In this document: positions 2,852 to 63,458 of the stretch, piece after piece
Numbering within the stretch: position 1 is the stretch's first letter
Layout: each line of letters opens with the position of its first letter
Made by a program: the position numbers and the translations under genes
Notes under the pieces: model-generated
What the model saw: only the letters and a program-made list of their open reading frames with translations
What the model was told of the DNA's origin: nothing
The model's database searches: none
From: Thiomicrorhabdus aquaedulcis
Lineage (GTDB): Bacteria > Pseudomonadota > Gammaproteobacteria > Thiomicrospirales > Thiomicrospiraceae
Direction of reading: 5' to 3'
Length of the DNA: 64,000 bases
NCBI RefSeq assembly: GCF_004001325.1
Contig: NZ_AP018722.1
Location: forward strand, 496,001-560,000

Positions 2852-4514
2852 TGCAAATTTTAAAAGGTGATTTTGCCGCCCATTTGTCTTTACACGATAA
2901 AGTCTTGTTGGTGGCGTTTGTGCTGCTTAAAGTGTTGCTGGTGGTGGCGTTGCCGTTGACGGGCGATGAGGCGTATTTTATTGGCTGGGGGCAAAATCTG
3001 GCCAGTGGGTATTACGACCATCCGCCCGCTGTGGGCTGGGTGTTATTTGGGTTAAGCACCTTGGCCGACAATCTGTATTGGTATCGCAGTTTTGCGTTGT
3101 TTACCTCGGTCGTGGTGGCGTATGTATTGTACAAACTGGTGCGGTTAAATCACAGCGTATCACCAGTGGTAGCGTTTTACGTGGGCTTAGTGTTTTTTGT
3201 GTCCCCGGTGTCGCTTATGTTTGTGCTTACCGCCAACGACACGGTGTTGGTGTTGTTTGGCCTGGTGGGCGGCTACTTTTTTGCCCGCACTGTTTTGCCC
3301 GATTCGCTTAATTCTCCCCAATCTTCTGATGTTCTTAACTCGTTTAAAACCTTAACGCTGTGGCCGATATTGGCGGGGCTTTTTTTAGGCATGGCGTTTT
3401 TGTCTAAATATTTTGCTGCGTTTGTTTTGCTGGGCTTGTTGTTGTGGACGTTTAGCCATTACAAAACCGTACCGTGGCGACGTGTAACGCTCATGGTGCT
3501 GATTGTGCTGGGGTTTGTGGTGCAAAACCTGTACTTTAACGCGACGCAATGCTGGAACAATATTCTGTTTAACTTTTTTTCACGCACAGCACAAAGCGCG
3601 TTTTCGTGGACAGATTTAGTAAGCAATGTGGCGCTGTATGGGCTTATGTTGGTATTTATGCTGTCGCCTTTGGGCGTGGTGTATTGGGTTAAAACTTTTA
3701 AAAACAGCCGCCACAAGAAGAGCCCCCAAAACAGTCTGCTAGAAAGCAGTTCTTTGAACTTACCAGGCCTGGTCAATCGCCCAAAACCTTTTTTAATGCG
3801 GTTTCAACCTTGGCATTGTACGCCAGTGTGCCGTTGTTGTTGGTGTTGCTGGTGGTGAGTTTTTCGCATCAAATTGGCTTGCATTGGCCGCTGATTGCGG
3901 TGGCGTGGTTGTTTGTGTTGTTCAGCATTTTGCCGGTACAAAAACTGGTGGTGTTGTATCGTTTTAACGCTTACAGCGCGTTGCTGTTGGGAGTGATGTT
4001 GCTGGCGGCGTTAGGATTTGTGGATAAGATAGTGCCCGAGTCACAACGCGCGCAAATTGCTCTGTACACTCAGCCGCAGGCGTTGTGCCCGCAATTGCCA
4101 CAGAGTAGGTTTTTTACGTTAGATTACAGCAGTCAATCGGCCTTGGCGTACCACTGCCAAAACGATGCGGTACATGTGTTTGCCAGCACCTCAAAATTTG
4201 GCCGAGAAGACGATAAATGGGTCGATTTTAAAGCGCTTAATCAGCAAAACTTAACCATTTTAATCACGCAGAAAAAAGAGCTTACCAAGTTGGCCGCGTT
4301 TTTTAGTCAGCTTGAGATAAAAGAGTTGCCCATGCCCAAGCACGCAGATTCAACGCATTTAACGCCCATCTATTATTTGGTGACGGGCATTGGGTTTGAT
4401 TACGCGGCTTACAAACAGGCCATTTTACAGCCGGTAGCCACAAAATATTACACCGCACCTGACTGGTTTCCTAAAACGGTTTGCCCGTTTAAAGCGCACT
4501 ATGATTTGCTTTAA
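2851..4514 (+). CDS. GT39/ArnT-like membrane glycosyltransferase, broken by an apparent frameshift
   Basis: The two halves (2851-about 3790 and about 3790-4514) lie in different frames but together make one protein of about 554 residues, the usual length for GT39/ArnT-type glycosyltransferases. The N-terminus has the family pattern: a first membrane helix, then PLTGDEAYFIGWGQ with the acidic catalytic-loop pair, and SGYYDHPPAVGWVLF. Adding one T to the six-T run at 3789-3794 gives a smooth junction, NRPKPFFNAVSTLALYASV. Such enzymes use polyprenyl-phosphate sugars on the periplasmic side of the membrane. Given its neighbours, this could be the transferase that uses the pentose donor; that is inference. 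The break is probably an assembly error, less likely a recent pseudogene. Confidence 0.72.
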
Positions 4515-4578
4515 TGTCTGCTTTAATGCCTGTCTTAATGCCTGCTTTATTGCATTTTATGCAAAGGTCTCTTTAAGT

Positions 4579-5187
4579 TTAAATTAAGTTTAATAGAGCT
4601 TGTTGCGCATTGTTAAGCGCACGAGTTTTAGACTCTTCGCCCATGGCCAGGCCTGGTGCGTTTACAAACGTAACGTTGTGCAGGCCAATAAATCCCAAAA
4701 TGGTGGTTAAGTAGGGTTCAACAAAGTTCATTTTGTTAAGCGGCGCTTGGGTGTAATCGCCCCCCGAGCTCACAATGACAATCACTTTGGGAATGTTCAA
4801 TAACCCTTCTGGACCATTGGCATCGTATTTAAACGTTTCGCCCACGCGAGTCACGTTATCGAGCCAGGCTTTAAGGGTGCTGGGCAGGCTAAAGTTATAC
4901 ATTGGGGTGCTAATCAACAACACGTCGGCTCGTTTTAGCGCCTGTACGTGCTGGTCAGAATAGGATAAACGCTCTTTTTGTTGCTCGGTGCGCGCATGCG
5001 CTGGGGTATAGGCTGCGCCGATAAACGCCTCATCAATATGACTGGGCAGGGTTTGAGCCAAAATATGCTGGGTAAGCTGGGTGTTGGGGTGGTTTTGCAT
5101 AAACTGTTCACAAAAAAAGTCAGCGAGCTTTTTGGATTCAGAGCCTTGCGACAATGCGCTGGCGTCAATTCTTACAATGTGAGTCAT
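4579..5187 (-). CDS. azoR: FMN-dependent NADH-azoreductase
   Basis: A 202-residue flavodoxin-fold protein of the AzoR/NQO family that reduces quinones and azo compounds with NADH and FMN. The FMN phosphate-site start (SQGSESKKLADFF), the central STPMYNFSLPSTLKAWLDNV block and the VSSGGDY loop are all present. The frame is open to 5265, but the real start is ATG 5187, where the conserved MTHIVRIDASA begins and a GGAACTC-type ribosome site precedes it. The gene is convergent with the glycosyltransferase and divergent from sspA. The repeated GGCCAGGCCTGGTG near 4645 lies inside it and encodes an APGLA stretch. Confidence 0.88.
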   Translation of the reverse strand: MTHIVRIDASALSQGSESKKLADFFCEQFMQNHPNTQLTQHILAQTLPSHIDEAFIGAAYTPAHARTEQQKERLSYSDQHVQALKRADVLLISTPMYNFSLPSTLKAWLDNVTRVGETFKYDANGPEGLLNIPKVIVIVSSGGDYTQAPLNKMNFVEPYLTTILGFIGLHNVTFVNAPGLAMGEESKTRALNNAQQALLNLI

Positions 5188-5439
5188 GGTGAGTTCCTTT
5201 TTTAGATAAATGTAACGTGCAATGTGCGAACAGTGTAAAACGGTTTTTAACCTTAAAAAAGTCACAAATCCACAAAATATTGTTGCTAAAAATGATGTTA
5301 ATCACCAAGGTGTAAAGATCGGGGGGCTTGACAGAGGGTGTATAATGGATAAATACAATTTTATATTTTTATAAACAGACCTTAGGCGTGTTTAACAAAC
5401 GTTTCTAAGCGTCAATAAGCCTTACTTAGGAGTGCTTAG

Positions 5440-6479: not shown

Positions 6480-6498
6480 AGGCCGCTTATAAACCGAT

Positions 6499-7536
6499 TT
6501 ATGACTTATTAAATGGCCTAATAATGCTTACATCCGCAAACGCCTGCTTAATCGCAGGCGTTTGCGTTTCTAAAAACAGCAATTTTAAGTTAGGTCCTGC
6601 GTCCATCGTAAAATAGACATCAACCCCTTGTTGGCGCAGTGCCCATACGGTGTGCATGGCGGCGACCGATTGCGGTTGCCAATACACAATGGGCGGCCAA
6701 GTGGCCATCATGGTGGCGTGCATGGTTAAGGCATTGTGCTCGGCCGTTTGCCCTAAAAGGGTAAAGTCGTGCTCTTCAATGGCTTGCAAAATACGTTGCA
6801 TGTCTTGGTTTGCTTGAGTTGGCCAGGCCTGGTAAAGCGCGCAGGTGTTAACCGTTTGTTGCATGCCGGCGGTTGAACTGATCGATTTTTGGCTAATATC
6901 AATTTTTAACAATCCCACGCACAGCTCTGGCCATGGTGTGGTGATTTCTTGGGCAAAACTGTCCATGCCATCGTCTTGCTCGCCTTGATGCCACAGCGCA
7001 AAGCCGTTAAACAGCGAGCGACTGGCGCTGCCGCTGCCCAAGCGTGCCAACAGCGATAACGCCGTTTTGGGCAGTTGCCAACCAAACAAGTCGTCTAACG
7101 CCAACACTAATGCGGCGTAGCCCGAGGCCGATGAAGCCAATCCTGCCGCGGTGGGCACGCTGTTGGCGGTATTCACCCAAAAAAAGTCTTGGGGAGTGGG
7201 TCTAAAAAGGCTTAAAAACTGACTTAAACGCTGGGCAAACGGTGTGTCGTTGCTTAGTTTTTGCTGATTTAAGGTGATTAAATCGGCCGTTGGGTTTAAC
7301 GCTGGGTTTATCAATCCCAGTGTGGTGTGCGTGCCCAGGCCTGGCAAGCTAATCGACACGCTGCCGTTCATAGGTAAATTAAGCACGGCGTCGCGTTTGC
7401 CCCAATATTTGCTTAAGGCGATGTTAACGGGTGCCTCACCCACGCCTTGTGGCTTAGGGGGCGAAATGGGCGCGTGTGCTTGCGAGAGTACGCGCTGTAC
7501 AAATTGGTGTTGCAGGGCAAAAGAAGTGTTGGTCAT
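6499..7536 (-). CDS. mvaD: Diphosphomevalonate decarboxylase
   Basis: A 345-residue GHMP-fold enzyme that decarboxylates 5-diphosphomevalonate to isopentenyl diphosphate, the last step of the classical mevalonate pathway. Visible motifs are APVNIALSKYWGKRD (near residue 34), the ATP loop SVPTAAGLASSASGYAAL (near 125) with its flanking substrate residues, GSGSASRSLFNG (near 165), and the C-terminal FTMDAGPNLKLLFLE carrying the conserved aspartate. This set distinguishes the decarboxylase from the kinases beside it. It is the last gene of the operon, 17 bases after pmk. It holds two copies of the CAGGCCTG palindrome, at 6821 and 7333. Confidence 0.9.
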   Translation of the reverse strand: MTNTSFALQHQFVQRVLSQAHAPISPPKPQGVGEAPVNIALSKYWGKRDAVLNLPMNGSVSISLPGLGTHTTLGLINPALNPTADLITLNQQKLSNDTPFAQRLSQFLSLFRPTPQDFFWVNTANSVPTAAGLASSASGYAALVLALDDLFGWQLPKTALSLLARLGSGSASRSLFNGFALWHQGEQDDGMDSFAQEITTPWPELCVGLLKIDISQKSISSTAGMQQTVNTCALYQAWPTQANQDMQRILQAIEEHDFTLLGQTAEHNALTMHATMMATWPPIVYWQPQSVAAMHTVWALRQQGVDVYFTMDAGPNLKLLFLETQTPAIKQAFADVSIIRPFNKS

Positions 7537-7553: not shown

Positions 7554-8591
7554 TTAGTCAACGTTTCTCTTGGCAAAAGCGCCTTGATCGGTGAGTTGAA
7601 CGCTAAGAGTTTGAAAGTCTTGAAAGACAGCGGCGGTTGACCAGGCCTGGTCATTTGTGTCATGACTTAACGCCAGTACACAATCGCCTAATCCTGAGCC
7701 TGATATTTTGGCGCAACAGACGTTGGGTGTGTGCGCCAGTTGATTCAAAATAGCCTGTAAGGTGGTGTCGGTTACGCCCAATTGGGTCATTAGCGTTTGG
7801 TAGTGATAACAGGCGTTAAAAAATTCGCTTAAGCCATTTGGACTGTTTAAGTTGTGGTGTGTTAAGACCTGGTAAGCGCGCTGGGTGGTTTTCCCCATTT
7901 GGGCGTACAGCGCCTTAAGCTCGGCAGGTTGATGTTGCCATTGTGCCGCCACCTGTTCAAGCACCTGGGCGGTGGGGGTTTTGTAGCCCGCGTAAATTAA
8001 GTGCAGGTTTAAGGTCGAAAAGAGAGCGTTTTTGAGTTTAACGATGTTGACGGACGCATTATTGGTCGCGCTGCTCGACGTGTCGCTTGACGGTTGAAAA
8101 TAAATTAAACCACCGTACAAACTCGCGGCCAAGTCGGTGCCTGAGCCGCGTCCTTGAATGACTAAAATTTGCTTGTGCCCCAGCGCAAACAACTCTAAAA
8201 CACTTAGGTTTTTTTGCGTTATGGCGTTTAAACCCACCAACATCGCCGCCAGCACCGCCGCCGAGCTGCCCAAGCCAATGGTGGACGAAAAGTCACTGTG
8301 AATATCAATGTCTAAGCCCATGTTGCAACGTCGTAAGTCGGGTTGAAACGCCCGCAATGCGCCGAGCACAAAGCGTAATTTTGGATGGTCGCAGGTCGGG
8401 TCGCTTAAACGTTCTAAGTGGGTATTTTCTTGTGCCAGGCTTGAGCGTATGCAGATGCGTTGATCGGTGCGTTGCTGCCAGTCAATGGTGATAAATTGAT
8501 TAAGCGCGCAGGCCAATGCGGGGTGACCGTACACCACGCTGTGTTCGCCTAACAACATGGTGTTGGCAGGGGCTTGGCTAAACCACTTCAC
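7554..8591 (-). CDS. GHMP kinase, probable phosphomevalonate kinase
   Basis: A 345-residue GHMP kinase. It begins with APANTMLLGEHSVVYGHPAL, has the ATP loop STIGLGSSAAVLAAM near residue 110, then GRGSGTDLAASLYGGLIYF, and ends with KISGSGLGDCVLAL. The SGTDLAASLYGG and GLGDC blocks match phosphomevalonate kinases better than mevalonate kinases, while the adjacent kinase has the mevalonate-kinase pattern, so this is assigned to the second phosphorylation (phosphomevalonate to diphosphomevalonate). The assignment between the two kinases is inference from motifs. The start overlaps the upstream kinase by 14 bases. An exact GACCAGGCCTGGTC lies at 7639. Confidence 0.75.
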   Translation of the reverse strand: MKWFSQAPANTMLLGEHSVVYGHPALACALNQFITIDWQQRTDQRICIRSSLAQENTHLERLSDPTCDHPKLRFVLGALRAFQPDLRRCNMGLDIDIHSDFSSTIGLGSSAAVLAAMLVGLNAITQKNLSVLELFALGHKQILVIQGRGSGTDLAASLYGGLIYFQPSSDTSSSATNNASVNIVKLKNALFSTLNLHLIYAGYKTPTAQVLEQVAAQWQHQPAELKALYAQMGKTTQRAYQVLTHHNLNSPNGLSEFFNACYHYQTLMTQLGVTDTTLQAILNQLAHTPNVCCAKISGSGLGDCVLALSHDTNDQAWSTAAVFQDFQTLSVQLTDQGAFAKRNVD

Positions 8592-9618
8592 AATAGGCCC
8601 CGCTTTGCGCGGCGCGCGAACCGGTGTTTAGGTCAATTAAGGTATAGCCGTATTGACGGCATAACTTAACCGGCGGCAGGTCGCTTAAACACAAAACGAT
8701 GCCGGCGCTTTCGCCTTCTACGCTGCCGGCACCGCAAATTTTGGCGCCAGCGTCCATGTCGTTTTCAAGGGCGGCAATAAAGTCTTGCACCCGTTGTGGC
8801 ACCACGCCAATTTGGGTCAGCAGTTGGTGGTTTTGGCGAATGCCTTGTTTAAGGTGCTGCGAGTTTTGGTGTGACCAGGCCTGGGCAATCTGGTGTGTGG
8901 TGGTTTTAAACGCTTGCCATAGTTCAGTTCGGAGGGCGTGGTTTTGTTTAACGGTTTGCACGCAATGTCCGGTACTGCTTTCTGGGTGGCCAGTATCAAT
9001 CAGCCAGCCGTGTAAGGTGTGTTTATCCAACTGCTCAATGGGGTGCTTGGGTTGATATTGCAATAGGCCGCCGTGAATCAGCGTGGTAGGGTCAATACCG
9101 CTCGAACGCCCATGTTGACGACATTCGATGAGTTGCGCCAACGCCAACAGTTCGGCGGGCTGCACGTCTAAGCGTTGATGGTGAATCAGCGATTTTAACA
9201 CCGCAATAATCACCGCCGCCGAACTGCCTAAGCCTCGACCCATTGGGGCTTTTGAGTCAATTTTAAATTGCCAATCGGCGCGCATAAGACCGTAGTGATG
9301 GTCAAAGTGGTGCAGTATGGTCAAAATTAAATCAAGGGGTTTAGACAACACCGATTGAATTGCCCCCGATTGGGTTTCAAACAGATGAAAGCGACTTTCT
9401 ATGCCCACGCTGAGTTGTTTCCATTGTGCAAATGGCAAACAATGTTTTTGCTGATAGTTGACCAGTTCAATGGTGACGCTGGGGTGGCGGCTCAGGGTGT
9501 AAGTGCTTAAGCAGTGTGTCGGTAAATCGATGGCCATGCTGATGGCGGGGCAGTCGTATAACACCGAGTGCTCGCCCGAAAGAATTAACTTGGCCGGCAC
9601 GGTACACAGGGTGGTCAT
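8578..9618 (-). CDS. GHMP kinase, probable mevalonate kinase
   Basis: A 346-residue GHMP kinase with VPAKLILSGEHSVLYDCPAI at the N-terminus, the ATP loop APMGRGLGSSAAVIIAV near residue 127, and HGRSSGIDPTTLIHGG followed by WLIDTGHPESSTGHCV. The SGID and IDTG-x-x-x-ST blocks match bacterial mevalonate kinases, so it should phosphorylate mevalonate at C5. The C-terminal glycine-rich loop is unusual: CGAGSVEGESAGIVL carries an insertion compared with the common GAGxGG form. It sits between mvaS and the second kinase in a tightly packed operon. Confidence 0.75.
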   Translation of the reverse strand: MTTLCTVPAKLILSGEHSVLYDCPAISMAIDLPTHCLSTYTLSRHPSVTIELVNYQQKHCLPFAQWKQLSVGIESRFHLFETQSGAIQSVLSKPLDLILTILHHFDHHYGLMRADWQFKIDSKAPMGRGLGSSAAVIIAVLKSLIHHQRLDVQPAELLALAQLIECRQHGRSSGIDPTTLIHGGLLQYQPKHPIEQLDKHTLHGWLIDTGHPESSTGHCVQTVKQNHALRTELWQAFKTTTHQIAQAWSHQNSQHLKQGIRQNHQLLTQIGVVPQRVQDFIAALENDMDAGAKICGAGSVEGESAGIVLCLSDLPPVKLCRQYGYTLIDLNTGSRAAQSGAYCEVV

Positions 9619-9642: not shown

Positions 9643-10857
9643 TTAGTGGGCTGAAGCGGGACTGGGTGCATGAGAATCGTCAGCGTGGGTTGTGGACACA
9701 ACTTGATACAGTCGTTTGTGTTCTAAAATTTGCGCCAGACGATAGGGGCCACGGTTGGTGGGTGTAAACACCACGTTGGTGGCGCCATCGTTAGGGTGGT
9801 GATAAAACGCTAAATACTGCGCATAGCTTAGTGCGGTACGTTGCGCAATTTGCGTTTGATGGCTTTGGCTCATTAACACCGCCTGATAACCGGGTTGCAC
9901 AATGCCGGTAAAAAACTCGGCCACACAGCCCGAACCGTAGCTAAAAAAGCTAACGCGCTTATTGTCTAAGCGGTCTTTAAGATGGTCTAAAAGTGAGCAA
10001 AACCCCACAAACAGCGAGGCGCTGTAACTGTTGCCCACAATGCGATTGTAAATTTGGCTGGGCAGAGTTTGCGCATCAAATTGCGCTTGAGTAAGGGTGG
10101 CACCGACTTTTTTAACCAAGGTTTGATGAGCTTTTTCGGCCATTTTGGTAAACGGTATGTGGTAGCAAAAGTAGTCAATATCTTGAAACGTGCGCCCGGT
10201 CTGTTCGGTAAAATGCGACCAGGCCTGCTTTAAGCTGTTTAAGTACACTTTAGTGGAGTATTTGCCGTCTACCAACGCCGTGGTACGGTAATTTGGGCGC
10301 CAAAAATCCATGACGTCTTCGGTGTAATAGCCCGAACCCGGTTCTATGGCTAAAATTCGTGGTGCTTGGGTAATCAGCATGGCCACCGCACCACAACCTT
10401 GCGTGGCCTCGCCCGAGGTGTCCACGTCGTATTTGGCAATGTCAGCGGCAATGACTAATATTTTTTCGTTTGGATTGGCGCGCACCATGCTGGTGGCCAT
10501 TTGCAACGCAGCCGCACCGGCGTAGCAGGCGTGTTTAAACTCCACCACACGACAGCGGTTTGACAGCTTAAGCAAGCCATGCAAAAACACCCCAGCCGAT
10601 TTAGATTGGTCAACGCCCGATTCGGTCGCAAACAACACCGCCGAAATTTGGCTGGCGTCCATTTGCGCCAAAATGGGTGCGGCGGCTTTGGCGGCCAACG
10701 TCACCACGTCTTCATCTGGCGGGGCAATCGACATTTTTTCTTGCCCAATGCCTACATAGAATTTATTGACGTCTTGGTGTTTTTCAGCCGCAAACGTGTC
10801 CAATCCCAAATAGTAATCTGAGGTGGAAAAATGAATTAAATCAATGCCTACTTTCAT
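9643..10857 (-). CDS. mvaS: Hydroxymethylglutaryl-CoA synthase
   Basis: A 404-residue HMG-CoA synthase condensing acetyl-CoA and acetoacetyl-CoA. The catalytic residues fall at the canonical bacterial numbers: Glu79 in LFATESGVDQ, the nucleophile Cys111 in EFKHACYAGAAAL, and His233 in FCYHIPFTKM. Length and motif order fit the short bacterial MvaS type. ATG 10857 begins MKVGIDLIHFSTSDYYLGLD, the expected N-terminus. No acetoacetyl-CoA thiolase is linked, so acetoacetyl-CoA must come from an enzyme encoded elsewhere. The C-terminus carries a Ser/Ala/His-rich tail of about 15 residues. Confidence 0.93.
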   Translation of the reverse strand: MKVGIDLIHFSTSDYYLGLDTFAAEKHQDVNKFYVGIGQEKMSIAPPDEDVVTLAAKAAAPILAQMDASQISAVLFATESGVDQSKSAGVFLHGLLKLSNRCRVVEFKHACYAGAAALQMATSMVRANPNEKILVIAADIAKYDVDTSGEATQGCGAVAMLITQAPRILAIEPGSGYYTEDVMDFWRPNYRTTALVDGKYSTKVYLNSLKQAWSHFTEQTGRTFQDIDYFCYHIPFTKMAEKAHQTLVKKVGATLTQAQFDAQTLPSQIYNRIVGNSYSASLFVGFCSLLDHLKDRLDNKRVSFFSYGSGCVAEFFTGIVQPGYQAVLMSQSHQTQIAQRTALSYAQYLAFYHHPNDGATNVVFTPTNRGPYRLAQILEHKRLYQVVSTTHADDSHAPSPASAH

Positions 10858-13621: not shown

Positions 13622-13682
13622 AAAAAAACCGTGTATTTTTAAATTGACCAGGCCTGGTTAACTTAAAAATCACGGTTTTTTT
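13622..13682. terminator. Bidirectional terminator enclosing the CAGGCCTG palindrome
   Basis: AAAAAAACCGTG at 13622-13633 pairs with CACGGTTTTTTT at 13671-13682. Inside, ATTTTTAA pairs with TTAAAAAT and the apex is GACCAGGCCTGGTT (13646-13659). Runs of A on the left and T on the right allow termination of both ppiC (plus) and the convergent SYLF gene (minus). Confidence 0.85.
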
Positions 13683-15262: not shown

Positions 15263-17296
15263 ATGAATTTTTACGCCGCCCAAGCGCAAGCCCGCAAAAA
15301 AACCAAATGGTGGGTGCTACTGTATGTGATTGTTTTATTGGTGATATCGGGGTTGAGTATTTTGGTGGTGTGGGCGTTGGTGGTGGTCTTGGGCGCAGGG
15401 CATTGGGTAGAGGTGCCGCGTTTTAATGCCCATCGCGATACTTGGAGCAACCTAATGGTGTTGGCAAGTCACCCCGTTGTATGGGCAGTAACCGGCGTTG
15501 TGGTGGGTGGGGCGTTGTTAAGTTCCTGGCTAAAAAGTCGCACACTGGCCAAAGGGGGCGCGCCTTTGGCCATGATGCTGGGCGGAGTGCCCATTAATCC
15601 CAGTACGCGCGTACCGAACGAACGCCGCGCCTTAAATGTGGTGGCCGAAATGGCGATTGCTTCAGGCATGCCCGTGCCCGAGGTGTATGTATTGCCAAAA
15701 GAGTCGGCCATTAACGCCTTTGCCGCAGGGCAGACGCCCGCCGATGCAGTGATTGGCTTAACTCAAGGCGCGTTAGACGGATTAAATCGCGCGCAATTGC
15801 AGGGCGTGGTGGGGCACGAGTTTAGTCATATTTTAAACGGCGACATGCGCCTTAATTTACGCATTATTATGCTGTTGCATGGTATTGAATTTATGGGGCA
15901 GCTTGGACGATGGTTAAGCCAGGCTGGACGTGGCGGTGTTCGCGCTCGTTCATCCTCAGGTCAAGCCAAGGGCAATGCTTTGTTTGTGCTGGCGGGGCTT
16001 GCTCTGCGCCTTATTGGCTGGTTTGGTGTGCAGTTTGGCAAAATGATTCAAGCGGCTATCAGTCGCCAGCGCGAGGTGTTGGCCGACGCTTCGGCTGTAC
16101 AGTTTACCCGTGATGCCCATGCGGTGGCCGATGCGCTTAAAGTGGTGGGTTATGGCCACCCTGGTGCGGTGTTAACGCACACCGATGTGTCGGCGGTGAG
16201 CCATCTGTTTTTTGGTCAAGCGTTTACCACGCACTTTAATTTTTTATTTGCTACGCATCCGCCATTGGCGACGCGCATTCGTGCACTCGATCCGCAGTGG
16301 AATGGGCAATACATCAAGCCATTAACGGCCTTGTCGGCATTAACTGCATTAACTGCATTAACGCCATCTTCGCCACCCGCGCAAACTGTCCAGACTAACA
16401 ATGGCGCATTGGGTTGGACGGCACCCCTTGAACATTTGGCGCTGGCGGTGCCAATGGGGCTGGAACAAGCGGCCGAGCATAATCAAGATTGGGCAAGCGA
16501 TGCGCCCAGCCCACATTGGGCTGAACTGGTTGCCTACACGCAAGAACCTCTTGATGCGGTGGGTTTGGTGATGGCGTGTTTGTTAAGCGAGCTGTCGGTT
16601 AAATCTATGCAAACATTGGATTGGCCAGTGTTGTTTAGTCAGAGCAATCTACCAGGCCTGGTCAAAGCGCAGCAAGCACATTTAATGGACACCGTAACGA
16701 AAATGCAACGCGTTTCTCGTCCGGCACGCATGGTGTTAATAGAGTTGGCCATGCCCGCGCTCAAACGGTTGTCGCCCCAGCAATATCAACATTTAAAACC
16801 CGCATTGCAATGGATTATGGCATTGGACGGCCAAAGCAATTTGTTTGAGCTCACCTTATACCAGTTGGTAGCGCACTATTTGGACGTGTTTTTTGGGCAG
16901 ACGTTACCGCTTAAGGTTAAATACCACACGCCGCAAGCGGTGCAAATTGAGCTGCAATGGTTGTTGTCTGCGTTGGCATTTTATGGGCAACACAGTACTC
17001 AGGTGCAGCAAGATGCCTTTGCTAAAGGCATGGCAATGTTGGGTTTAACCGCGTTGCAGCCATTGAACGATATGGTGTACAAGGCCGAAGAATTTGCCCG
17101 TTTAACCGTCAAGTTAACCCACGCGTCACTGCCGTTAAAAGACCGGATTATGCAAGCGCTCATCACGTGCGCCCAGCACGATGGGGTGATTAATTCAACC
17201 GAGCGGGAATTGATTTTAGCCATTGCCGCCACGCTTGACGCACCCATTGCGCGCTTGGCTGTGGTGGTGTGGGATGAAACCTCTCAATCGATTTAA
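15263..17296 (+). CDS. Large membrane M48 metalloprotease with C-terminal TerB-like region
   Basis: A 677-residue protein, longer than HtpX. Two N-terminal membrane helices (about residues 15-45 and 70-90) are followed by an M48 domain with the zinc-binding motif GHEFSHILNGDM (near residue 184) and the third-ligand region QREVLADASAVQFTRD (near 268). A low-complexity LTALTALTA stretch follows (near 355-367), encoded by a 9-base tandem repeat at about 16336-16362. The C-terminal 60 residues resemble TerB-like helical domains (ITCAQHDGVINSTERELIL). It pairs with lemA in an operon seen in many proteobacteria. A CAGGCCTG palindrome at 16650 encodes LPGLV. Confidence 0.85.
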   Translation: MNFYAAQAQARKKTKWWVLLYVIVLLVISGLSILVVWALVVVLGAGHWVEVPRFNAHRDTWSNLMVLASHPVVWAVTGVVVGGALLSSWLKSRTLAKGGAPLAMMLGGVPINPSTRVPNERRALNVVAEMAIASGMPVPEVYVLPKESAINAFAAGQTPADAVIGLTQGALDGLNRAQLQGVVGHEFSHILNGDMRLNLRIIMLLHGIEFMGQLGRWLSQAGRGGVRARSSSGQAKGNALFVLAGLALRLIGWFGVQFGKMIQAAISRQREVLADASAVQFTRDAHAVADALKVVGYGHPGAVLTHTDVSAVSHLFFGQAFTTHFNFLFATHPPLATRIRALDPQWNGQYIKPLTALSALTALTALTPSSPPAQTVQTNNGALGWTAPLEHLALAVPMGLEQAAEHNQDWASDAPSPHWAELVAYTQEPLDAVGLVMACLLSELSVKSMQTLDWPVLFSQSNLPGLVKAQQAHLMDTVTKMQRVSRPARMVLIELAMPALKRLSPQQYQHLKPALQWIMALDGQSNLFELTLYQLVAHYLDVFFGQTLPLKVKYHTPQAVQIELQWLLSALAFYGQHSTQVQQDAFAKGMAMLGLTALQPLNDMVYKAEEFARLTVKLTHASLPLKDRIMQALITCAQHDGVINSTERELILAIAATLDAPIARLAVVVWDETSQSI

Positions 17297-17328: not shown

Positions 17329-17352
17329 CAACTGACCAGGCCTGGTCAGTTG
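17329..17352. repeat. 24-bp perfect palindrome centred on CAGGCCTG
   Basis: The exact 14-mer GACCAGGCCTGGTC (17334-17347) is extended on both sides by CAACT/AGTTG to a perfect 24-base palindrome. It lies 33 bases after the M48 protease stop. A T-rich stretch follows some 20 bases later, not directly, so it could serve as a hairpin or a protein-binding site rather than a classic intrinsic terminator. Confidence 0.85.
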
Positions 17353-18765: not shown

Positions 18766-19656
18766 TTAGCCCGCGCGCACCGAAAAACTGTCGGTGGCGC
18801 TTAGCTTAATCACTTTGGGGTTGGGGGTGTTGTGTTCAATCAGCCAAGCCAGTTCGGTTTGTAATTTTGGCTCGTCCAGTAAGATTTGCCAAACGCGTTC
18901 GTTGGCGTTCCAGCGATAACCGCGACTGCGTAACGCGTCTTTAAGGTCAAACGGCGCTCCCGTGGCTTTTAACAGCGATTTGGGTTGGCGAACCGCTTGC
19001 AATAAATAGTGCAACGCCGGTCTTGCTTCGGTGGATATGGGCTGAGACAGCAGTTGGCACAAGGCTTGAACGTCGTCTAATGCGCGGTGCGCGCCGTAAA
19101 AAAACTGCCCGACTTTCCAGCATAAAAACTCTTGCGAACGCGAGCTTACCTGTGCAAGATTTTGCCAATCAATTTGGGCGACCGAACAGCCCCAAATTTT
19201 AGTGATAAACACCGGGTCATGCCGTTCTAACACGGGGCGGTCAAAGCCGGCATTGTGTGCCACGCACAGTTGGACGTCGGCCAAATCGGCCGCAACGGTG
19301 TCCCATGGAATGCGGTGACCTTGTACATCGGCCAGGGTTAAACCGGTGACTTGGGTGACTTCGGCCGAAATCTCGCCGTTGGGTTCGTTTAAAAAGTTTT
19401 GCGCGCTCAGTACGCGGTACAAATGGCCGTGCGAATCAAATTCTATAATTTGATAACCCAGTTCAATGATTTCGCATACTTGGGTGTCTAATCCGGTGGT
19501 TTCGGTGTCAATGATGCACACTTTGTGCAAAGGCCGATCGTCGATGGGCGAATTAAATTGGGTTTTTGCGGCAAGTTTGCTTAACACCTGGTATTGACCC
19601 GATTGGGTGAGTTGCTCGGCGCAGGCCTGAAGTTGTTGGGGCGTGGAATCGGTCAT
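18766..19656 (-). CDS. DEDDh 3'-5' exonuclease family protein
   Basis: A 296-residue protein with a DnaQ-like exonuclease domain (about residues 44-200). The DEDDh motifs are complete: IDTETTGLD (Exo I), CVAHNAGFDRPVL (Exo II) and HRALDDVQAL (Exo III with the catalytic His). The region after residue 205 is a small domain with SRGYRWNANERVWQI, often found fused to such exonucleases. It is likely a DNA or RNA trimming nuclease rather than the polymerase III epsilon subunit. It forms a minus-strand cluster with the HIRAN and pseudouridine synthase genes, 14 bases downstream of the HIRAN gene. Confidence 0.85.
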   Translation of the reverse strand: MTDSTPQQLQACAEQLTQSGQYQVLSKLAAKTQFNSPIDDRPLHKVCIIDTETTGLDTQVCEIIELGYQIIEFDSHGHLYRVLSAQNFLNEPNGEISAEVTQVTGLTLADVQGHRIPWDTVAADLADVQLCVAHNAGFDRPVLERHDPVFITKIWGCSVAQIDWQNLAQVSSRSQEFLCWKVGQFFYGAHRALDDVQALCQLLSQPISTEARPALHYLLQAVRQPKSLLKATGAPFDLKDALRSRGYRWNANERVWQILLDEPKLQTELAWLIEHNTPNPKVIKLSATDSFSVRAG

Positions 19657-19670
19657 GGAAAAGTTCCTAT

Positions 19671-20126
19671 TTATAAAGTGAATGATTTAATCCAGTAGTG
19701 TAAACGCTGTATACGATTTTGTTGACGTAATAAAAAACACCATAACAGCATTTTAAACGCCTTTAACCAGGCCTGGTCAAAGCTTAGTTGACACTCTATT
19801 TGCAGTCGCGGCGCCGTGCGAACGGGGGCAGTCAGCATTAAACGATACGCGGGTGCTGCGTGAGTTTTTTGCTGTGCAAACTCGCTCATGGCGAGTGTTG
19901 GGTGTATAACGCGTGCTAGTTGTCTGGGAACATAACCGATGAGCAGGCCTGGTAAGTTGGCCTGATGAGACGGCAGCCAAATCTGCACGGCATAAGGGTC
20001 AAAGGCGTTATCGGGTTCGGTTTTAAGCGTTAAGGTGGTGTTGGGCGTAAGCCGGTGTTGCTCCATGGCCAATTGCGCGGCGTAATAAAAAGTGCCTTTG
20101 ATCATAAAGCGATATTTTTTAATCAT
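19671..20126 (-). CDS. HIRAN domain protein
   Basis: A 151-residue protein whose N-terminal 110 residues match the HIRAN domain: FMIKGTFYYAAQ, LKTEPDNAFDPYAVQIWL and IGYVPRQLARVI. HIRAN domains bind 3' single-stranded DNA ends in eukaryotic HLTF; stand-alone bacterial versions are uncharacterized. Its start overlaps the upstream pseudouridine synthase by 8 bases and the exonuclease follows 14 bases later. A DNA-end function with the exonuclease is plausible but inferred. Two CAGGCCTG palindromes (19765, 19941) lie inside it. Confidence 0.82.
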   Translation of the reverse strand: MIKKYRFMIKGTFYYAAQLAMEQHRLTPNTTLTLKTEPDNAFDPYAVQIWLPSHQANLPGLLIGYVPRQLARVIHPTLAMSEFAQQKTHAAPAYRLMLTAPVRTAPRLQIECQLSFDQAWLKAFKMLLWCFLLRQQNRIQRLHYWIKSFTL

Positions 20127-49113: not shown

Positions 49114-49129
49114 TAACCAGGCCTGGTTA
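49114..49129. repeat. 16-bp CAGGCCTG palindrome
   Basis: A perfect palindrome TAACCAGGCCTGGTTA in the gap after the chemoreceptor gene. No T-run follows. Confidence 0.85.
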
Positions 49130-51369: not shown

Positions 51370-51878
51370 AAATTGCCCTAATTGCCGCCATGACGCATGA
51401 TCGAGTCATTGGTTTAGACAACGACATGCCGTGGCATCTGCCCGACGATTTAAAATTTTTTAAAGCCACTACGCTGGGTAAGCCGGTGATTATGGGGCGA
51501 AAAACGTTTGAGTCGATTGGTTCTAAACCTTTGCCCAATCGCCTTAATATCGTGATCAGTCGTAATCCCGATTTTAAAGTGCAAGGCGTACACCTCTTTA
51601 CGTCGGTAGCGTTAGCATTGCAGGACTTACCAGGCCTGGTAGATATAAGTACAAACAATTTTGAAGTCATTATTATGGGCGGTGGCCAGTTGTACGCTCA
51701 AATGCTGCCGCAAGCTGACCGCTTATATTTAACCTTAATTGACGCCAATATTAACGGCGATACTTACTTTCCCGATTGGCAGGAGAACGCTTGGCACGAA
51801 GTAGAGCGTATTCATCACCCAAAAGATGAGCGCCATGCTTTTGCGTTTGATTTTGTGACATTGCAAAAAAGGTTTTGA
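51366..51878 (+). CDS. folA: Dihydrofolate reductase
   Basis: A 170-residue DHFR that regenerates tetrahydrofolate used up by ThyA. Seen: [20 protein letters not shown] with the catalytic Asp, [27 protein letters not shown] and the C-terminal [20 protein letters not shown]. Start and stop overlap with thyA as ATGA. A CAGGCCTG palindrome at 51628 inserts LPGLVDIS near residue 88, a surface-loop position. A terminator follows at 51926. Confidence 0.95.
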
Positions 51879-54702: not shown

Positions 54703-54742
54703 AAAAAAGCCCTTTGATCAGGCCTGGTCAAAGGGCTTTTTT
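54703..54742. terminator. Bidirectional terminator whose apex is the palindrome
   Basis: AAAAAAGCCCTTTGA pairs with TCAAAGGGCTTTTTT, and the middle is CAGGCCTGG in GATCAGGCCTGGTC (54716-54729). It serves the chemoreceptor gene on the plus strand and znuB on the minus strand. It shows directly that the palindrome can be built into an intrinsic terminator. Confidence 0.9.
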
Positions 54743-56575: not shown

Positions 56576-57556
56576 ATGAATTTAAGCGTGAGTGCGTGGT
56601 TTAGCATTGTGGTCTTGAGTGCGCTGCATACTGCGCACACGGTGCAGGCGGCGAATGTGGTGGTGTCTATTCCTCCGTTGGCAGGTTTAATTGCGCCTTT
56701 ATTGGGTGAGAACGATCAACTGCATGTGCTGTTGCAACCTGGGGTGTCGCCGCATGGTTTCCAGTTAAAACCGTCTCATTTAAAGCAGTTAACGCAGGCC
56801 GATTTAATTGTCGCCGTAGGCTCACCCGTTGATCAGTGGATGCATAAAGCCAGTAATGCTCAAACGGCAGTGCGCCTTAATATGCTAGAGCTCCCAGGCT
56901 TAGAGAAACTGCCCTTACGCCAGGGTGGCTTGTGGGAGTCGCACCGAGCAAAAGACACGCCTAAAAATCAACACGATCATGACCATGAGCATGAAAGTAA
57001 CATGGCTTACGACGGTCATTTATGGATGTCATGGACTAACGCCGTGTTATTGGTTAACGCGGTCAGCGCGCAATTGCAGCGCGCTAATCCAACAGAGGTG
57101 ACGGCCATACAACAACGCACCCAGGCCTGGTTAACGCGTTTAAACGCCAGTCAAACCCATATTGCAGGGCAACTTAAGCCGTTTACTCACCACGGGTTTT
57201 TAGTGCTGCATGATGCGTTTCAATATTTTGAACACCAATTTGGTTTAAAGGGCATGGGGTCTATTCGCCTTAATCCCGAGTTGCCGCCCAGTTTAAAACG
57301 CATTGATACGCTCAGAGAAAAAATTAAAACGGGTCAAGTACGTTGCATTTTTAAAGAGCCGCAGTTTCCTGAAAAAAATGTCTTAGCCGTGGTGCAAGGT
57401 TTGTCGGTCAATATAGGTCAACTTGATCCAATGGGGTCGGTGTATGTCTTTGAATACGCACAGCGCAACCCAAATGAGTCTAAACGCGATTACGTAAACT
57501 ACGACGTGATGATGCAGGGTTTGGCCGATGCTTTTAGTCAATGTTTGACGCAGTAG
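56576..57556 (+). CDS. znuA: Periplasmic zinc-binding protein ZnuA
   Basis: A 326-residue cluster 9 solute-binding protein. The signal peptide ends HTVQA before ANVVVSIPP. Metal ligands are in LLQPGVSPHGFQLKPSHLKQ (His), the short acidic His-rich loop DHDHEHE, then DGHLWMSWTNAVLL (His) and FLVLHDAFQYFEHQFG (His). It delivers zinc to ZnuBC encoded divergently. The frame is open from 56399 but ATG 56576 starts the signal peptide; no Zur box is evident in the 123-base gap to znuC. Its 3' end overlaps the next gene by 16 bases. Confidence 0.9.
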   Translation: MNLSVSAWFSIVVLSALHTAHTVQAANVVVSIPPLAGLIAPLLGENDQLHVLLQPGVSPHGFQLKPSHLKQLTQADLIVAVGSPVDQWMHKASNAQTAVRLNMLELPGLEKLPLRQGGLWESHRAKDTPKNQHDHDHEHESNMAYDGHLWMSWTNAVLLVNAVSAQLQRANPTEVTAIQQRTQAWLTRLNASQTHIAGQLKPFTHHGFLVLHDAFQYFEHQFGLKGMGSIRLNPELPPSLKRIDTLREKIKTGQVRCIFKEPQFPEKNVLAVVQGLSVNIGQLDPMGSVYVFEYAQRNPNESKRDYVNYDVMMQGLADAFSQCLTQ

Positions 57557-58299
57557 CCATCGTGAAATCGTTAAGTTTAACGCCATTAAACATCGCTATA
57601 GTGGGTTTGCCGGGGGCTGGAAAATCACGTGTTCTAGCCAGTCTTAGCCAGCACTCATTAACGACCAGGCCTGGTCAATCGTGTGAAATAAATGTCTTTT
57701 TGCCCGATTTAGATTCCGCTATGACAGCGCAAATTTGGCAGGTATGGTGTGTTGTCGACGTGCGCAAACCTTTGCTGACGGGTCGCGACGTTTATGTAGA
57801 GCAAGCGTTGCACGACTTATTACGCCAAGCACATGGTGTGGTGTTGACGTTTTTAGAACAGGCCGATTTAACTCAGCAGGCCTGGTGGAACCATTGGTTA
57901 AAACATCATTACCCGCATTTACCCGTCGTGCGCTGGTTAAATCAACAGTTTACCCCCCAATGGCCAGGATTTGAACTCGATGCAGTCAACAGCGTAATAA
58001 ATGTGCCTCTGCCGGGGGCTTGGCAGCGTTTTGAGTTTGATTTGGGGCGGGTCTGTTTAGACCATTTGTTAATGGGTTTGGACGCATCCAAAAGCAATTT
58101 AGACATGGCTATTTGGCGGGTGCACGGAGTGCTTAATACGCTGGAATATCAAAATGCCGTGGCGGTAGAGGGTACGCCCACGCTGTTACAAAGCTTTGCG
58201 GCAGAGGCCAATTTGGCATACGCACCTGGGCAATTGGTTATTGAAGGTTTTCATCTTGACCAGGCCTGGTTAACGCAAATTGTCATGGCCGCAACGTAA
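57541..58299 (+). CDS. P-loop protein resembling COG0523/CobW metallochaperones
   Basis: A 252-residue protein with a Walker A loop, IVGLPGAGKSRVLASL (near residue 20). VVLTFLEQADLTQQAWW recalls the NKxD region of CobW-type GTPases, but the Asn-Lys is not present. The C-terminal half (MAIWRVHGVLNTLEYQN, then GQLVIEGFHLDQ) resembles a CobW C-terminal domain. The metal-binding CxCC motif of the G3E family is missing. It overlaps znuA by 16 bases and so is likely co-translated with it. A role in zinc handling is inferred. It carries three CAGGCCTG palindromes, one in each reading frame (encoding RPGQ, QAWW and QAWL in two of them). Confidence 0.55.
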   Translation: MFDAVAIVKSLSLTPLNIAIVGLPGAGKSRVLASLSQHSLTTRPGQSCEINVFLPDLDSAMTAQIWQVWCVVDVRKPLLTGRDVYVEQALHDLLRQAHGVVLTFLEQADLTQQAWWNHWLKHHYPHLPVVRWLNQQFTPQWPGFELDAVNSVINVPLPGAWQRFEFDLGRVCLDHLLMGLDASKSNLDMAIWRVHGVLNTLEYQNAVAVEGTPTLLQSFAAEANLAYAPGQLVIEGFHLDQAWLTQIVMAAT

Positions 58300-59919: not shown

Positions 59920-59933
59920 CACCAGGCCTGGTC
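59920..59933. repeat. CAGGCCTG palindrome in the sufB-sufC gap
   Basis: CACCAGGCCTGGTC lies 20 bases after the sufB stop, inside the suf operon, and differs from the 14-mer consensus by one base. No T-run follows, so transcription should continue into sufC. Confidence 0.85.
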
Positions 59934-60769: not shown

Positions 60770-60773
60770 TCCT

Positions 60774-62144
60774 TTGGCGCAGAGTCTTGAAATCACAGCG
60801 CCGTCCAGCACGGCGCGTAAAATGTCCCCGGTCGCTCGGCAAGCAGTAGCGCATTATGTCGGGTTGTCGCAAACTTTAAATCAACAGCAGGACAGCTCCA
60901 GCGTGCAAACGGCGCGCGCGCATGCGCAAGGCATCTTGGCAAACGCAGGCTTTCCCACGCAACGCGATGAGGCTTGGCAGTACACTAAACTCACTGAATT
61001 TGTAAAAACCCATTTTACAATGGCCGGCGCCAGTCACATTACCGAACAAGATGTGCAAAAATTTATGCCGCCTTACCCAGTGACCAAATTGGTGTTTGTT
61101 GACGGATGGTTTAGCGAACGCTTTTCGGATGATTTGGTTGATTTGCCGCGTGGCGTTACCATTGAAACCATGCGCGACGCCGAAAGCATCTCGGGCGGCG
61201 CGGCAGCGTTGTTTAACCACCAAAGGGCGTTTGACGTTGAACCTTTTGCGGTGTTAAACACCGCGTTGTTGGCCGATGGCTATTACTTGCAAGTGGCGCG
61301 CCATACCTGTTTAGAGCAACCTATTTTTGTGTTGTACTTGCAGACTCGGCACGACCAAATAGCCAATGTTCGCAATCGCGTTATTATTGAAGAAAACGCG
61401 CAAATAACCCTGGTTGAACACTATGCGTCACTCAATACCGACGCTTTAGCCACGGTTAGCGGTTGCACCAATGTGGTGAATGAATTAACCCTGGGCGAGT
61501 CGGCGCAATGTCATCAGGTGATTGTGCAAACCCAAAATCACAGCAGCTACTATTTTAATAATCAGTTTATTTATCAAGCCGCCAAAAGCCAGTTTTTTGG
61601 TTTTTACGCAGGCCTGGGCAGTGTGACTTCGCGCCACCAAAACCATTTGTGGATGAACGGCGAGCGCGTAGAAAGTTCGCAAAACAGTGCGTGCATTGGG
61701 CGGGCAGGGCAAACGGTGGACAGTCGCACCGACACTCAACACAACCAAACGTGGGGCACCAGCCGTCAACTGCATAAATTTGTGTTGGACGACACCGCGA
61801 TTGGGGTATTTGATGGCATGATTAAAGTCGATCGATTGGCGCAAAAAACCGACGGTCAAATGGACAATAAAAATTTGTTGCTGTCCAATGCCGCCAAAAT
61901 GGATTCTAAGCCAAAACTTGAAATTTATGCCGACGACGTCAAATGTTCGCACGGCTCGGCCACGGGGCAAATTAACCCAGAGCAAATTTTTTATTTGCAG
62001 GCGCGCGGTATTGCACGTGCTCAAGCGGTTCATATGATTACCCAAGCATTTTTGATGGAGCCAGCCGAGGCCATTGTGCACGCTGGCGTACGTCATTGGG
62101 TTATGGATTGGTTAACCAAAACGCTTAACGATTCTAACGCTTAA
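60774..62144 (+). CDS. sufD: Fe-S cluster assembly protein SufD
   Basis: A 456-residue SufD, the SufB paralogue. Seen: AGFPTQRDEAWQYTKLTEFV (SufD N-terminal pattern), VFVDGWFSERFSD, LEQPIFVLYLQT, HNQTWGTSRQLHKFVLDD, VFDGMIKVDRLAQKTDGQ and the conserved DVKCSHGSATGQINPEQIFY followed by LQARGI. It probably starts at TTG 60774, with GGAG 12 bases upstream; no in-frame ATG with a better site was seen at the N-terminus. Confidence 0.94.
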   Translation: MAQSLEITAPSSTARKMSPVARQAVAHYVGLSQTLNQQQDSSSVQTARAHAQGILANAGFPTQRDEAWQYTKLTEFVKTHFTMAGASHITEQDVQKFMPPYPVTKLVFVDGWFSERFSDDLVDLPRGVTIETMRDAESISGGAAALFNHQRAFDVEPFAVLNTALLADGYYLQVARHTCLEQPIFVLYLQTRHDQIANVRNRVIIEENAQITLVEHYASLNTDALATVSGCTNVVNELTLGESAQCHQVIVQTQNHSSYYFNNQFIYQAAKSQFFGFYAGLGSVTSRHQNHLWMNGERVESSQNSACIGRAGQTVDSRTDTQHNQTWGTSRQLHKFVLDDTAIGVFDGMIKVDRLAQKTDGQMDNKNLLLSNAAKMDSKPKLEIYADDVKCSHGSATGQINPEQIFYLQARGIARAQAVHMITQAFLMEPAEAIVHAGVRHWVMDWLTKTLNDSNA

Positions 62145-62163
62145 CGATTTAAGGGGGTAATGG

Positions 62164-63402
62164 ATGCAAACATCGCTTAAAAACAGTCCCGATTTTAGCC
62201 AGATTCGCGCGCAGTTTCCCATTTTGCAACAAACCGAAAATGGCCAGCCATTGGTGTACTTGGATAACGGCGCGACCGCGCAAAAACCGTTGTCGGTGAT
62301 TGAGGCGATGGACACTTATTACCGCACACAAAACGCCAATGTACATCGTGGCGTGTACGGTTTAAGTGAGCGTGCCACCGAGTTGTACGAAGGCGCACGC
62401 GAAACCGTGCGCCAGTTTTTAAACGCGCAATCGACCAAAGAAATTATTTTTGTGCGCGGCACTACCGAGGCCATTAATTTGGTGGCCTTTAGTTGGGCGC
62501 GCGCCAACTTAACGCGTGATGATGAAATTATTGTAACCGAAATGGAGCATCACTCTAATATTGTGCCGTGGCAGTTGTTGCGTGATCAGCTGGGCATTAA
62601 ATTGTCGGTGTTGCGCATGAATCATTTGGGCGAAATTTGCCTAGAGGCCTTAAAAGGCATGGTGAGTGCTAAGACAAAGTTGCTGGCGGTCACCCAAATG
62701 TCGAACGCTTTGGGAACTATTAATCCTGTCAAAGAGATGGTACGCATTGCCCATTCGGTCGGCGCCAAAGTCTTAGTCGATGGCGCGCAAGCCACGCCAC
62801 ACATGGCGGTGGATGTACACGATTTGGATTGTGATTTTTATGCGCTGTCTGGGCATAAAATGTACGGCCCGACGGGCATTGGTGTGTTGTACGCCAAACA
62901 AGCGTTGTTAGAAGCCATGCCACCTTATCAGGCTGGGGGCGACATGATTTATTCGGTGACCTTTGAAAAAACCGAATACAACGTGTTGCCTTATAAATTT
63001 GAAGCCGGAACGCCGCACATTGCCGGTGCAATTGGCCTGGCGGCCGCCATTCGTTTTATTGAATCGATTGGTTTAGAGCACATTGCGGCGCACGAAGCCG
63101 ATTTATTGGCTTACGCCACCGCCGAGCTTAAAAAAATTGACGGTCTGCGCATTATTGGCGAGGCCAAGCACAAAGGTGGCGTGGTGTCGTTTGTAATCGA
63201 AGGGGTGCACCCACACGACATGGCGACCTTAATGGATCAAGAAGGCATTGCGTTGCGCGCCAGTCACCATTGCGCTATGCCGGTTATGCAACATTTTAAC
63301 GTGCCGGCCACCATTCGTGCCTCGTTTGGGGTGTACAACAATCACGCCGACATTGATCGTTTGGTGGCGGCTATTTTAGAAGCCAAATCGATGTTGCTTT
63401 AA
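62164..63402 (+). CDS. sufS: Cysteine desulfurase SufS
   Basis: A 412-residue PLP enzyme that takes sulfur from cysteine for cluster assembly. Seen: LVYLDNGATAQKPLSVIEAM, YRTQNANVHRGVYGLSERAT, VRGTTEAINLVAFSW, TEMEHHSNIVPWQLL, the PLP lysine in ALSGHKMYGPTGIGVLYAK and the active-site Cys in RASHHCAMPVMQHF. This is the group II (SufS/CsdA) type. No sufE or sufU follows within the window, so a partner must be elsewhere. It is preceded by AAGGGGG 8 bases before ATG 62164. Confidence 0.96.
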   Translation: MQTSLKNSPDFSQIRAQFPILQQTENGQPLVYLDNGATAQKPLSVIEAMDTYYRTQNANVHRGVYGLSERATELYEGARETVRQFLNAQSTKEIIFVRGTTEAINLVAFSWARANLTRDDEIIVTEMEHHSNIVPWQLLRDQLGIKLSVLRMNHLGEICLEALKGMVSAKTKLLAVTQMSNALGTINPVKEMVRIAHSVGAKVLVDGAQATPHMAVDVHDLDCDFYALSGHKMYGPTGIGVLYAKQALLEAMPPYQAGGDMIYSVTFEKTEYNVLPYKFEAGTPHIAGAIGLAAAIRFIESIGLEHIAAHEADLLAYATAELKKIDGLRIIGEAKHKGGVVSFVIEGVHPHDMATLMDQEGIALRASHHCAMPVMQHFNVPATIRASFGVYNNHADIDRLVAAILEAKSMLL

Positions 63403-63432
63403 CGGTTGTTTTAACTGTCTCTATAAACTACG

Positions 63433-63458
63433 AGCATTGACCAGGCCTGGTCAATGCT
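63433..63458. repeat. 26-bp perfect palindrome centred on CAGGCCTG
   Basis: The exact 14-mer (63439-63452) is extended on both sides by AGCATT/AATGCT to the longest such palindrome in the window. It lies 30 bases after the sufS stop and probably forms a hairpin in the transcript, although no T-run follows. Confidence 0.88.

Follow-up and report, generated by a model that had tools for sequence, protein, structure and literature searches.

An iterated GGCC-centred palindrome of Thiomicrospiraceae as a probable DNA-uptake tag

The closest described parallels to the element considered here, an iterated palindrome (CAGGCCTG) in a 64,000-nucleotide stretch of Thiomicrorhabdus aquaedulcis (NCBI RefSeq contig NZ_AP018722.1, positions 496,001 to 560,000; this whole stretch is referred to as the window, and positions within it count from its first base), are the DNA-uptake tags of Pasteurellaceae (uptake signal sequence, USS) and Neisseriaceae (DNA uptake sequence, DUS). 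All statements attributed below to papers given by PMC number are limited to excerpts of those papers. According to these, such uptake specificity is known in only two families (PMC12616744), and an excess of perfect copies over near-misses is a puzzling mark common to USS and DUS, unlike regulatory sites (PMC1626085); for kingDUS, one mismatch adds 21% (PMC3630211). Frye and colleagues describe DUS dialects that keep a common core and agree with the phylogeny (PMC3630211), the Pasteurellaceae USS has two AT-rich segments about one helical turn apart (PMC1626085), and Helsem and colleagues report that inverted repeats of DUS and USS double as terminators (PMC12616744). Judging from sequence comparisons, CAGGCCTG is probably a self tag of the DNA-uptake type, and it is best read as a third, independently arisen uptake-sequence system, the core of which is a palindrome in most of the species.

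The window contains 34 matches to CAGGCCTG, all of them already listed in a first-pass annotation, which put the chance expectation at about one copy; 100 dinucleotide shuffles give a mean of 0.66 (maximum 4). Markov models of orders 1 to 3 predict 0.7–0.9 copies, and those of orders 4 and 5 predict 2.1 and 16 respectively because they absorb the motif itself. The annotation had allowed that genome-wide counts might fall near the Markov expectation or that many GC-rich palindromes might be equally enriched, and neither is the case. In the genome that holds the window (referred to as G000; 2,537,035 bases in two contigs), CAGGCCTG occurs 1106 times, about once per 2.3 kb, against a single match to a reversed-pattern control. 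In a 464-kb sample of G000 (the window and 20 further stretches), 203 copies were observed and 6.3 expected, while the runner-up among the 256 palindromic 8-mers, ranked by O/(E+1), reached 16 against 4.4 expected, and, taken as a set, the 79 remaining palindromic 8-mers that contain six or more G/C were not enriched (454 observed, 560 expected).

Alignment of the 203 sampled sites gives a consensus of about 18 bp (TTRACCAGG followed directly by CCTGGTYAA), where the information ends in G000. Each flank of the 8-mer consists of C (0.86), A (0.85), one position that leans to purine, T (0.74), and T (0.51). The 14-base frame of the first-pass annotation is thus somewhat arbitrary, as the consensus extends beyond it and its position -3 is merely purine-leaning; the six exact 14-mers were each found at the start given, and 32 of the 34 frame starts are exact, the other two being shifted by one (3761, not 3762; 61606, not 61607). 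The core is strict: the 12-mer ACCAGGCCTGGT has 131 perfect copies in the G000 sample against 50 single-mismatch neighbours in total, of which 44 differ at the two outermost positions and only 0–2 at each of the inner four, and the 8-mer has 203 perfect copies against 120 with a single mismatch. Perfect copies also outnumber near-misses in samples of G021, G023, G020, and G035. Hidden one-sided use of the palindromic sites was considered and rejected; counts of the T-rich side match independence in G000, G021, G005, G023, and G035, and the palindromic sites therefore have no hidden orientation.

With coding status taken from a mechanical caller of open reading frames (ORFs; at least 90 aa), 131 of the 203 sites lie within ORFs and 72 are intergenic. 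Motif density per kb is 3.1 in convergent gaps, 1.4 in co-directional gaps, 0.6 in divergent gaps, and 0.32 in coding DNA (three of the 203 sites, outside ORF-flanked gaps, are left out of these gap classes). Of the five control palindromes, four have their higher density within ORFs, and the fifth, AGCGCT, is roughly equal in density and leans between gap classes as the motif does (9 intergenic copies). Samples of seven other genomes, five with CAGGCCTG and two with dialects (described below), were also compared, and in six of them the motif is denser in intergenic than in coding DNA. The peak in convergent gaps, together with perfect palindromes with arms of at least 10 at 10 of the 72 intergenic sites against 2 of the 131 coding sites in G000, is what would be expected if the sites were transcription terminators or other RNA elements at gene ends. 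We regard this explanation as very unlikely, since most sites (131 of 203) lie within ORFs and sites inside aligned genes are kept between species. The coding copies fit the reading frames, and the phase that would place an AGG codon is rare (12 of 131).

The first-pass annotation listed an uptake tag, a nucleoid or segregation site, a methylation target, and a mutational by-product as roles, with no preference among them. The motif is spread over the whole chromosome, with 4–12 copies per 20 kb throughout the samples, and a site restricted to one chromosomal region is therefore not borne out. Nor was a significant difference found between the chromosome arms, as split by the GC skew of the samples (107 copies in 264 kb and 96 in 200 kb, p 0.23). 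The second contig (C2, 96.8 kb) encodes a Rep3 initiator, a RecT-family protein, and F-type TraN, TraG, and TraH (L238–L242), and is an apparent conjugative plasmid. It carries 7 motif copies against 42 at chromosomal density and 0.75 by chance, i.e., it is six-fold sparser than the chromosome.

Persistence of the sites was followed in alignments with relatives. In the aligned region of cell-wall genes, identity between species is about 70%, and sites 22 (41402) and 24 (43844) are intact there in 7/7 and 5/9 aligned relatives respectively. Over all alignable stretches and under a stricter threshold, motif-rich relatives keep 14 of 21 aligned sites intact and genomes low in CAGGCCTG keep 0 of 19, whereas control 8-mers are intact at 6–12% of positions. 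The relatives behind these counts overlap, so that the counts are not independent of each other; G020 is grouped with the low genomes despite a dialect of its own, and G002, G018, G023, G019, and G011 have no aligned site and add nothing. In 13 of 16 comparisons between a site and a relative that lacks the motif, a small sample, the alignment is ungapped (one of the 13, G022 at 43844, resembles contig-end sequence), and sites therefore come and go by substitution. The many near-identical and often intergenic copies might otherwise suggest a dispersed mobile repeat of the repetitive extragenic palindrome or miniature inverted-repeat transposable element type, copied by a transposase. That explanation is hardly credible, given that the ungapped comparisons show the copies not to be insertions, that information ends at about 18 bp, and that the coding copies respect reading frames as described above.

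One genome per species (84,980 species) was scanned for the exact 18-mer, which returned 83 stretches. Among the 80 of these in the matches listed, 78 are from Thiomicrorhabdus, Hydrogenovibrio, or Thiomicrospira, and the two exceptions are a gammaproteobacterial metagenome-assembled genome and a single copy in Plantactinospora. The host genome of the window belongs to Thiomicrospiraceae, and within this family 32 of 62 genomes contain 236–1173 copies of CAGGCCTG (15/32 in genus g1, 9/9 in g5, 7/11 in g6, and 1/1 in g3), the remaining genomes having 0–74. Some low genomes still exceed the reversed control several-fold (e.g., G062, 64 against 7). In 21 genomes from other families of the class, no count exceeds 222, and the control for that genome is 91.

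The motif takes several forms, or dialects. The ACCAGGCCTGGT form is found in samples from G000, G021, G009, G016, G015, G033, and G036, while samples of G005 and G018 show a looser AACAGGCCTGTT-like form (AACAGG dialect). The dialect of G023 is TACCGGCCGGTA, and that of G020 is the non-palindromic AACAGGCCGGGT, in one reading direction TACCCGGCCTGTTGAGTTTTTT; G004 probably carries this asymmetric TACCCGGCCTGTTGAGTTTTTT dialect too. In every dialect observed, the core is centred on GGCC. A degenerate pattern for the G023 and G020 dialects matches 1059 times in G023, 312 times forward and 311 times reverse in G020, and 193 and 174 times respectively in G004, and elsewhere at most 72 times in total (controls 0–94), a few genomes topping a small control several-fold (e.g., G059, 18 against 2). 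G059 (genus g2) is otherwise poor in all dialects; on its contig C69, at 206–241, two copies of CCCGGCCTGT lie in opposite orientation 16 bases apart and resemble the inverted pairs of G020 described below.

The dialects follow descent on a tree built from seven cell-wall proteins of 22 sampled members of the genus. G023 branches first, and the sister group of G020 is G005/G018, with the AACAGG dialect that supplies one half of the G020 motif. The motif is missing from the clades G019/G011/G013/G024 and G001/G022/G017, as well as from G014 and G003. Several deep nodes of this tree have support below 80, the exact dialects of G002 and G006 come from few sites, and G004 and the other genera are not placed. 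A k-mer search of ten genomes with few copies of CAGGCCTG and few matches to either dialect pattern (G003, G014, G024, G013, G019, G031, G074, G011, G022, and G017) found no comparable motif in samples of 13–120 kb, a size at which weak motifs could escape. In G019, this search is dominated by an unrelated longer repeat, present in about 50 copies in the 60 kb sampled (L032–L034; its words include AGCTAAGAAA and GCCGCCAAGG). In the motif-low G074 (L246–L250), AGCCTGG (11 against 1.0) and AAATCTGC (9 against 0.7) are over-represented intergenically, and may represent another repeat or a weak, unrelated tag.

The asymmetric form of G020 is accompanied by T-rich tracts at 8–13, 21–25, and 32–36 nt past GGCC (43 oriented sites). 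The first of these (8–13) is clear in the palindromic dialects of G005, G021, and G023 and weak in G000, and there are hints of the later tracts in G005 and G021. Between genes, close inverted terminator-like pairs occur (3 pairs among 62 sites, e.g., AACTCAACAGGCCGGGTAGAAATCATTTCCTACCCGGCCTGTTGAGTT), and within genes the G020 sites are found in either orientation. The location and pairing of sites in G000 and G020 would fit the gene-end terminators described for DUS and USS. Counted by orientation, 34 G020 sites are forward and 24 reverse. Chi sites, which are strand-oriented with replication, likewise reach about a thousand copies per genome, but the present motif differs from them in being palindromic and hence free of orientation, or, in the asymmetric G020, in being mixed in orientation. 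Also in G020, near-identical gene segments recur at a spacing of about 1 kb in L081 (~1985–6925), and six of them hold a variant of the G020 motif at the same position.

The chief rival to an uptake tag is a chromosome-organising protein, i.e., a cytoplasmic dimer that binds the motif genome-wide and acts in the organisation, segregation, or repair of the chromosome; this protein would coevolve with its site and would have been lost in some lineages. Such a protein would account for the two-fold symmetric consensus of most dialects, for the similar quality of the two half-sites within a site (r 0.37 in G000), for the spread of the motif across the whole chromosome, and for its conserved positions, and the divergent gaps hold the fewest intergenic copies. 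The strongest sequence argument on the other side is the G020 dialect, whose asymmetry and one-sided phased T-tracts are awkward for a homodimer, and the core is also stricter than is reportedly typical for regulatory sites, as far as the excerpt of PMC1626085 goes. On balance, we consider this alternative unlikely, though it deserves to be taken seriously.

A different alternative follows from the methylation target and the likeness to HIP1, the highly iterated palindrome of cyanobacteria, that were suggested in the first-pass annotation: a DNA methyltransferase with a target inside the motif would bias repair or selection, and the palindrome would accumulate as a by-product. The Thiomicrospiraceae motif does resemble HIP1 and its alternates as a GC-rich iterated palindrome (about 1 per 2.3 kb) that is replaced by another palindrome in some genomes, here in G023 (Elhai 2015, PMC4390886, excerpt), and G000 has one C5 methyltransferase. 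The enzyme is not consistently present over the family, however. The C5 and N4/N6 methyltransferase families PF00145 and PF01555 were each searched in 58 genomes, and 13 of the 30 high-copy genomes searched match neither of these two methyltransferase families (other N6-adenine families were not searched), including G015, G021, G025, and G064, which are at least 99% complete; PF00145 is absent from all nine genus-g5 genomes, every one of them high-copy. The motif further differs from HIP1 in its longer graded consensus and its interrelated dialects, one of them asymmetric, and an 18-bp consensus with T-tracts seems longer than an ordinary methyltransferase site. As far as these two families go, methylation is thus not borne out as a general cause, and we judge the by-product explanation very unlikely.

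The presence of competence genes was a check proposed in the first-pass annotation. Of these, ComEC, which forms the channel for DNA through the inner membrane in natural transformation, is present in 55 of 60 genomes; it is missing from two motif-low genomes that are 99% complete, G031 and G065, and from the less complete G004, G006, and G069. The search for a receptor yielded no clear candidate. A four-prepilin cluster (PF07963, 22 genomes among the matches listed), considered as a possible comNOPQ, was rejected because it is a type II secretion system (T2SS) operon; in G000, it encodes GspD, E, F, G, I, J, and K above their NCBIfam cut-offs, with GspH below. A prepilin cluster adjoining miaB was likewise set aside, as it occurs in both motif-rich and motif-low genomes (in the stretches read from G035 and G063, it has one prepilin only; MiaB itself was confirmed in G015). 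A conserved prepilin of about 160–230 aa (GFTLVEIAIVLVIIGLLLGGVLKGQE... or a close variant; L276, L278–L297), often located by miaB and large prepilin-like proteins, was found alike in motif-rich and motif-low genomes.

Several observations weigh against the uptake interpretation. ComEC is present in most motif-low genomes too, and therefore does not track the motif. PilQ is above its curated cut-off in 0/60 genomes (with scores counted per matched stretch), an imperfect test, as just 1 of 14 control genomes passes it; the top PilQ hits fall in GspD and Tad CpaC-type secretins, and the high-copy G010 (86% complete) lacks any PilQ match. In the genomes that were typed, the secretins identified are T2SS GspD and Tad/Flp in G000 and an MSHA-type MshL above cut-off in G015, an unusual set, and the outer-membrane route therefore remains putative. 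ComP_DUS is above cut-off in 0/60 genomes, and GspH in 3/60, all motif-low. Some of the sequence marks also have exceptions: near-misses of the 8-mer outnumber perfect copies in G005 (48 against 42), the first T-tract is absent in G035 and G063, the density in G035 is higher within genes (0.50/kb) than in intergenic DNA (0.29/kb), and the divergent gaps of G020 are not motif-poor (4 sites, 1.25/kb). We know of no precedent for a palindromic uptake signal, and the searches made of the open-licence literature yielded neither an uptake experiment on these bacteria nor a prior report of this motif or of uptake specificity in these genera. With PilQ over cut-off in 0/60 and no uptake test found, the uptake function is one that we infer.

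Even so, the resemblance to uptake sequences noted in the first-pass annotation has gained in substance through the dialects, the strict core, the terminator-like pairs, the phased T-tracts, the conserved positions, and the widespread ComEC. Apart from G005 (8-mer strictness), G035 (location), and G035 and G063 (T-tract), the Thiomicrospiraceae motif appears to carry the sequence-level marks of USS and DUS. With the Pasteurellaceae USS, it shares very many copies, a strict core, clade dialects, and many genic copies, and, chiefly in G020, inverted terminator-like pairs and AT-tracts about one helical turn apart (PMC1626085, PMC12616744; excerpts). It differs from the USS, which has a GCGG-containing 9-bp core, in being GGCC-centred and palindromic in most species, and in that PilQ over cut-off was not detected. 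With the Neisseriaceae DUS, it shares phylogeny-congruent dialects around a short shared core and few near-misses (PMC3630211, excerpt). The DUS, however, has a CTG core read by ComP, and ComP_DUS is above cut-off in none of the 60 genomes here; the motif is also palindromic, has downstream T-tracts, and is unrelated in consensus to the DUS given in the excerpt of PMC1626085. As its core is unrelated to both and usually palindromic, the motif is therefore no member of USS or DUS proper, although it would function in the manner of both if the uptake interpretation is right.

Under the uptake interpretation, the tag would be read during uptake, a pilus protein would be its receptor, and recombination would be its upkeep. 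The receptor on the DNA-uptake machine would bind the GGCC-centred core and draw tagged DNA in preferentially; incoming DNA of relatives would then replace resident alleles by recombination, which would spread the alleles that carry a tag and overwrite those in which it has decayed, and genomes would therefore fill with perfect copies and few near-misses. Drift of receptor specificity among lineages would give rise to dialects, and where the receptor is lost, the tags would fade. More tentatively, and as a possibility rather than an expectation, we propose that this third self-DNA uptake code uses a palindromic tag readable from either side in most species, that one lineage lost this symmetry and acquired an oriented, USS-like tag accompanied by three phased T-tracts, and that the reader is a non-PilQ pilus (MSHA-type or other). 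The palindromic and oriented tags would then be steps of a single evolving receptor.

The individual sites in the window are as follows, without strand and with the coordinates of the CAGGCCTG 8-mer unless the exact 14-mer is named. Sites 1–4 lie at 3764..3771, 4648..4655, 6824..6831, and 7336..7343, site 5 is an exact 14-mer (7639..7652), and sites 6–9 lie at 8876..8883, 10220..10227, 13649..13656, and 16653..16660. Site 10, an exact 14-mer (17334..17347), is intergenic and within a longer perfect palindrome with an arm of 12. Sites 11–15 follow at 19622..19629, 19768..19775, 19944..19951, 20645..20652, and 24726..24733, site 16 is an exact 14-mer (27002..27015), and site 17 is at 27882..27889. 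Among the sites covered by alignments, site 18 (31496..31503) is intact in 2/4 aligned relatives, site 21 (38845..38852) in 3/3, site 22 (41402..41409) in 7/7, site 23 (41552..41559) in 3/12, and site 24 (43844..43851) in 5/9, while site 26 (51631..51638) has a single aligned relative, in which it is not intact (gapped). Site 25 lies at 49118..49125. Site 27 (54719..54726) is within a longer imperfect inverted repeat, AAGCCCTTTG...CAAAGGGCTT, as read from the sequence, and site 28 is at 57122..57129. Site 29 is an exact 14-mer (57663..57676), sites 30–33 lie at 57877..57884, 58261..58268, 59923..59930, and 61609..61616, and site 34, again an exact 14-mer (63439..63452), is intergenic and within a longer perfect palindrome with an arm of 13.

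Two genes in the window were noted as well. A bacterial class A RNase P RNA (32473–32858, + strand, 307 bits) has motif copies on either side (8-mers starting at 32358 and 33070): site 19, an exact 14-mer (32355..32368), is about 100 bases upstream, and site 20 (33070..33077) about 200 bases downstream. At 6499–7536 (- strand), a diphosphomevalonate decarboxylase-like protein (PF22700, PF18376) suggests a mevalonate pathway, which is unusual among gammaproteobacteria.

Should the motif not serve uptake, it would still be a lineage-coded, genome-wide binding site for some other reader. Thiomicrospiraceae are marine, free-living sulfur oxidisers, and, if the uptake interpretation is true, a third family with such a system would suggest that uptake tags are not tied to life with an animal host. 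The trait would also have arisen again with the same physical design, namely a strict core, phased T-tracts, and terminator pairs. Finally, the series from a palindrome through a half-changed palindrome to an oriented motif, with losses on the same tree, may serve as a natural experiment in the joint change of a receptor and its thousand genomic sites.

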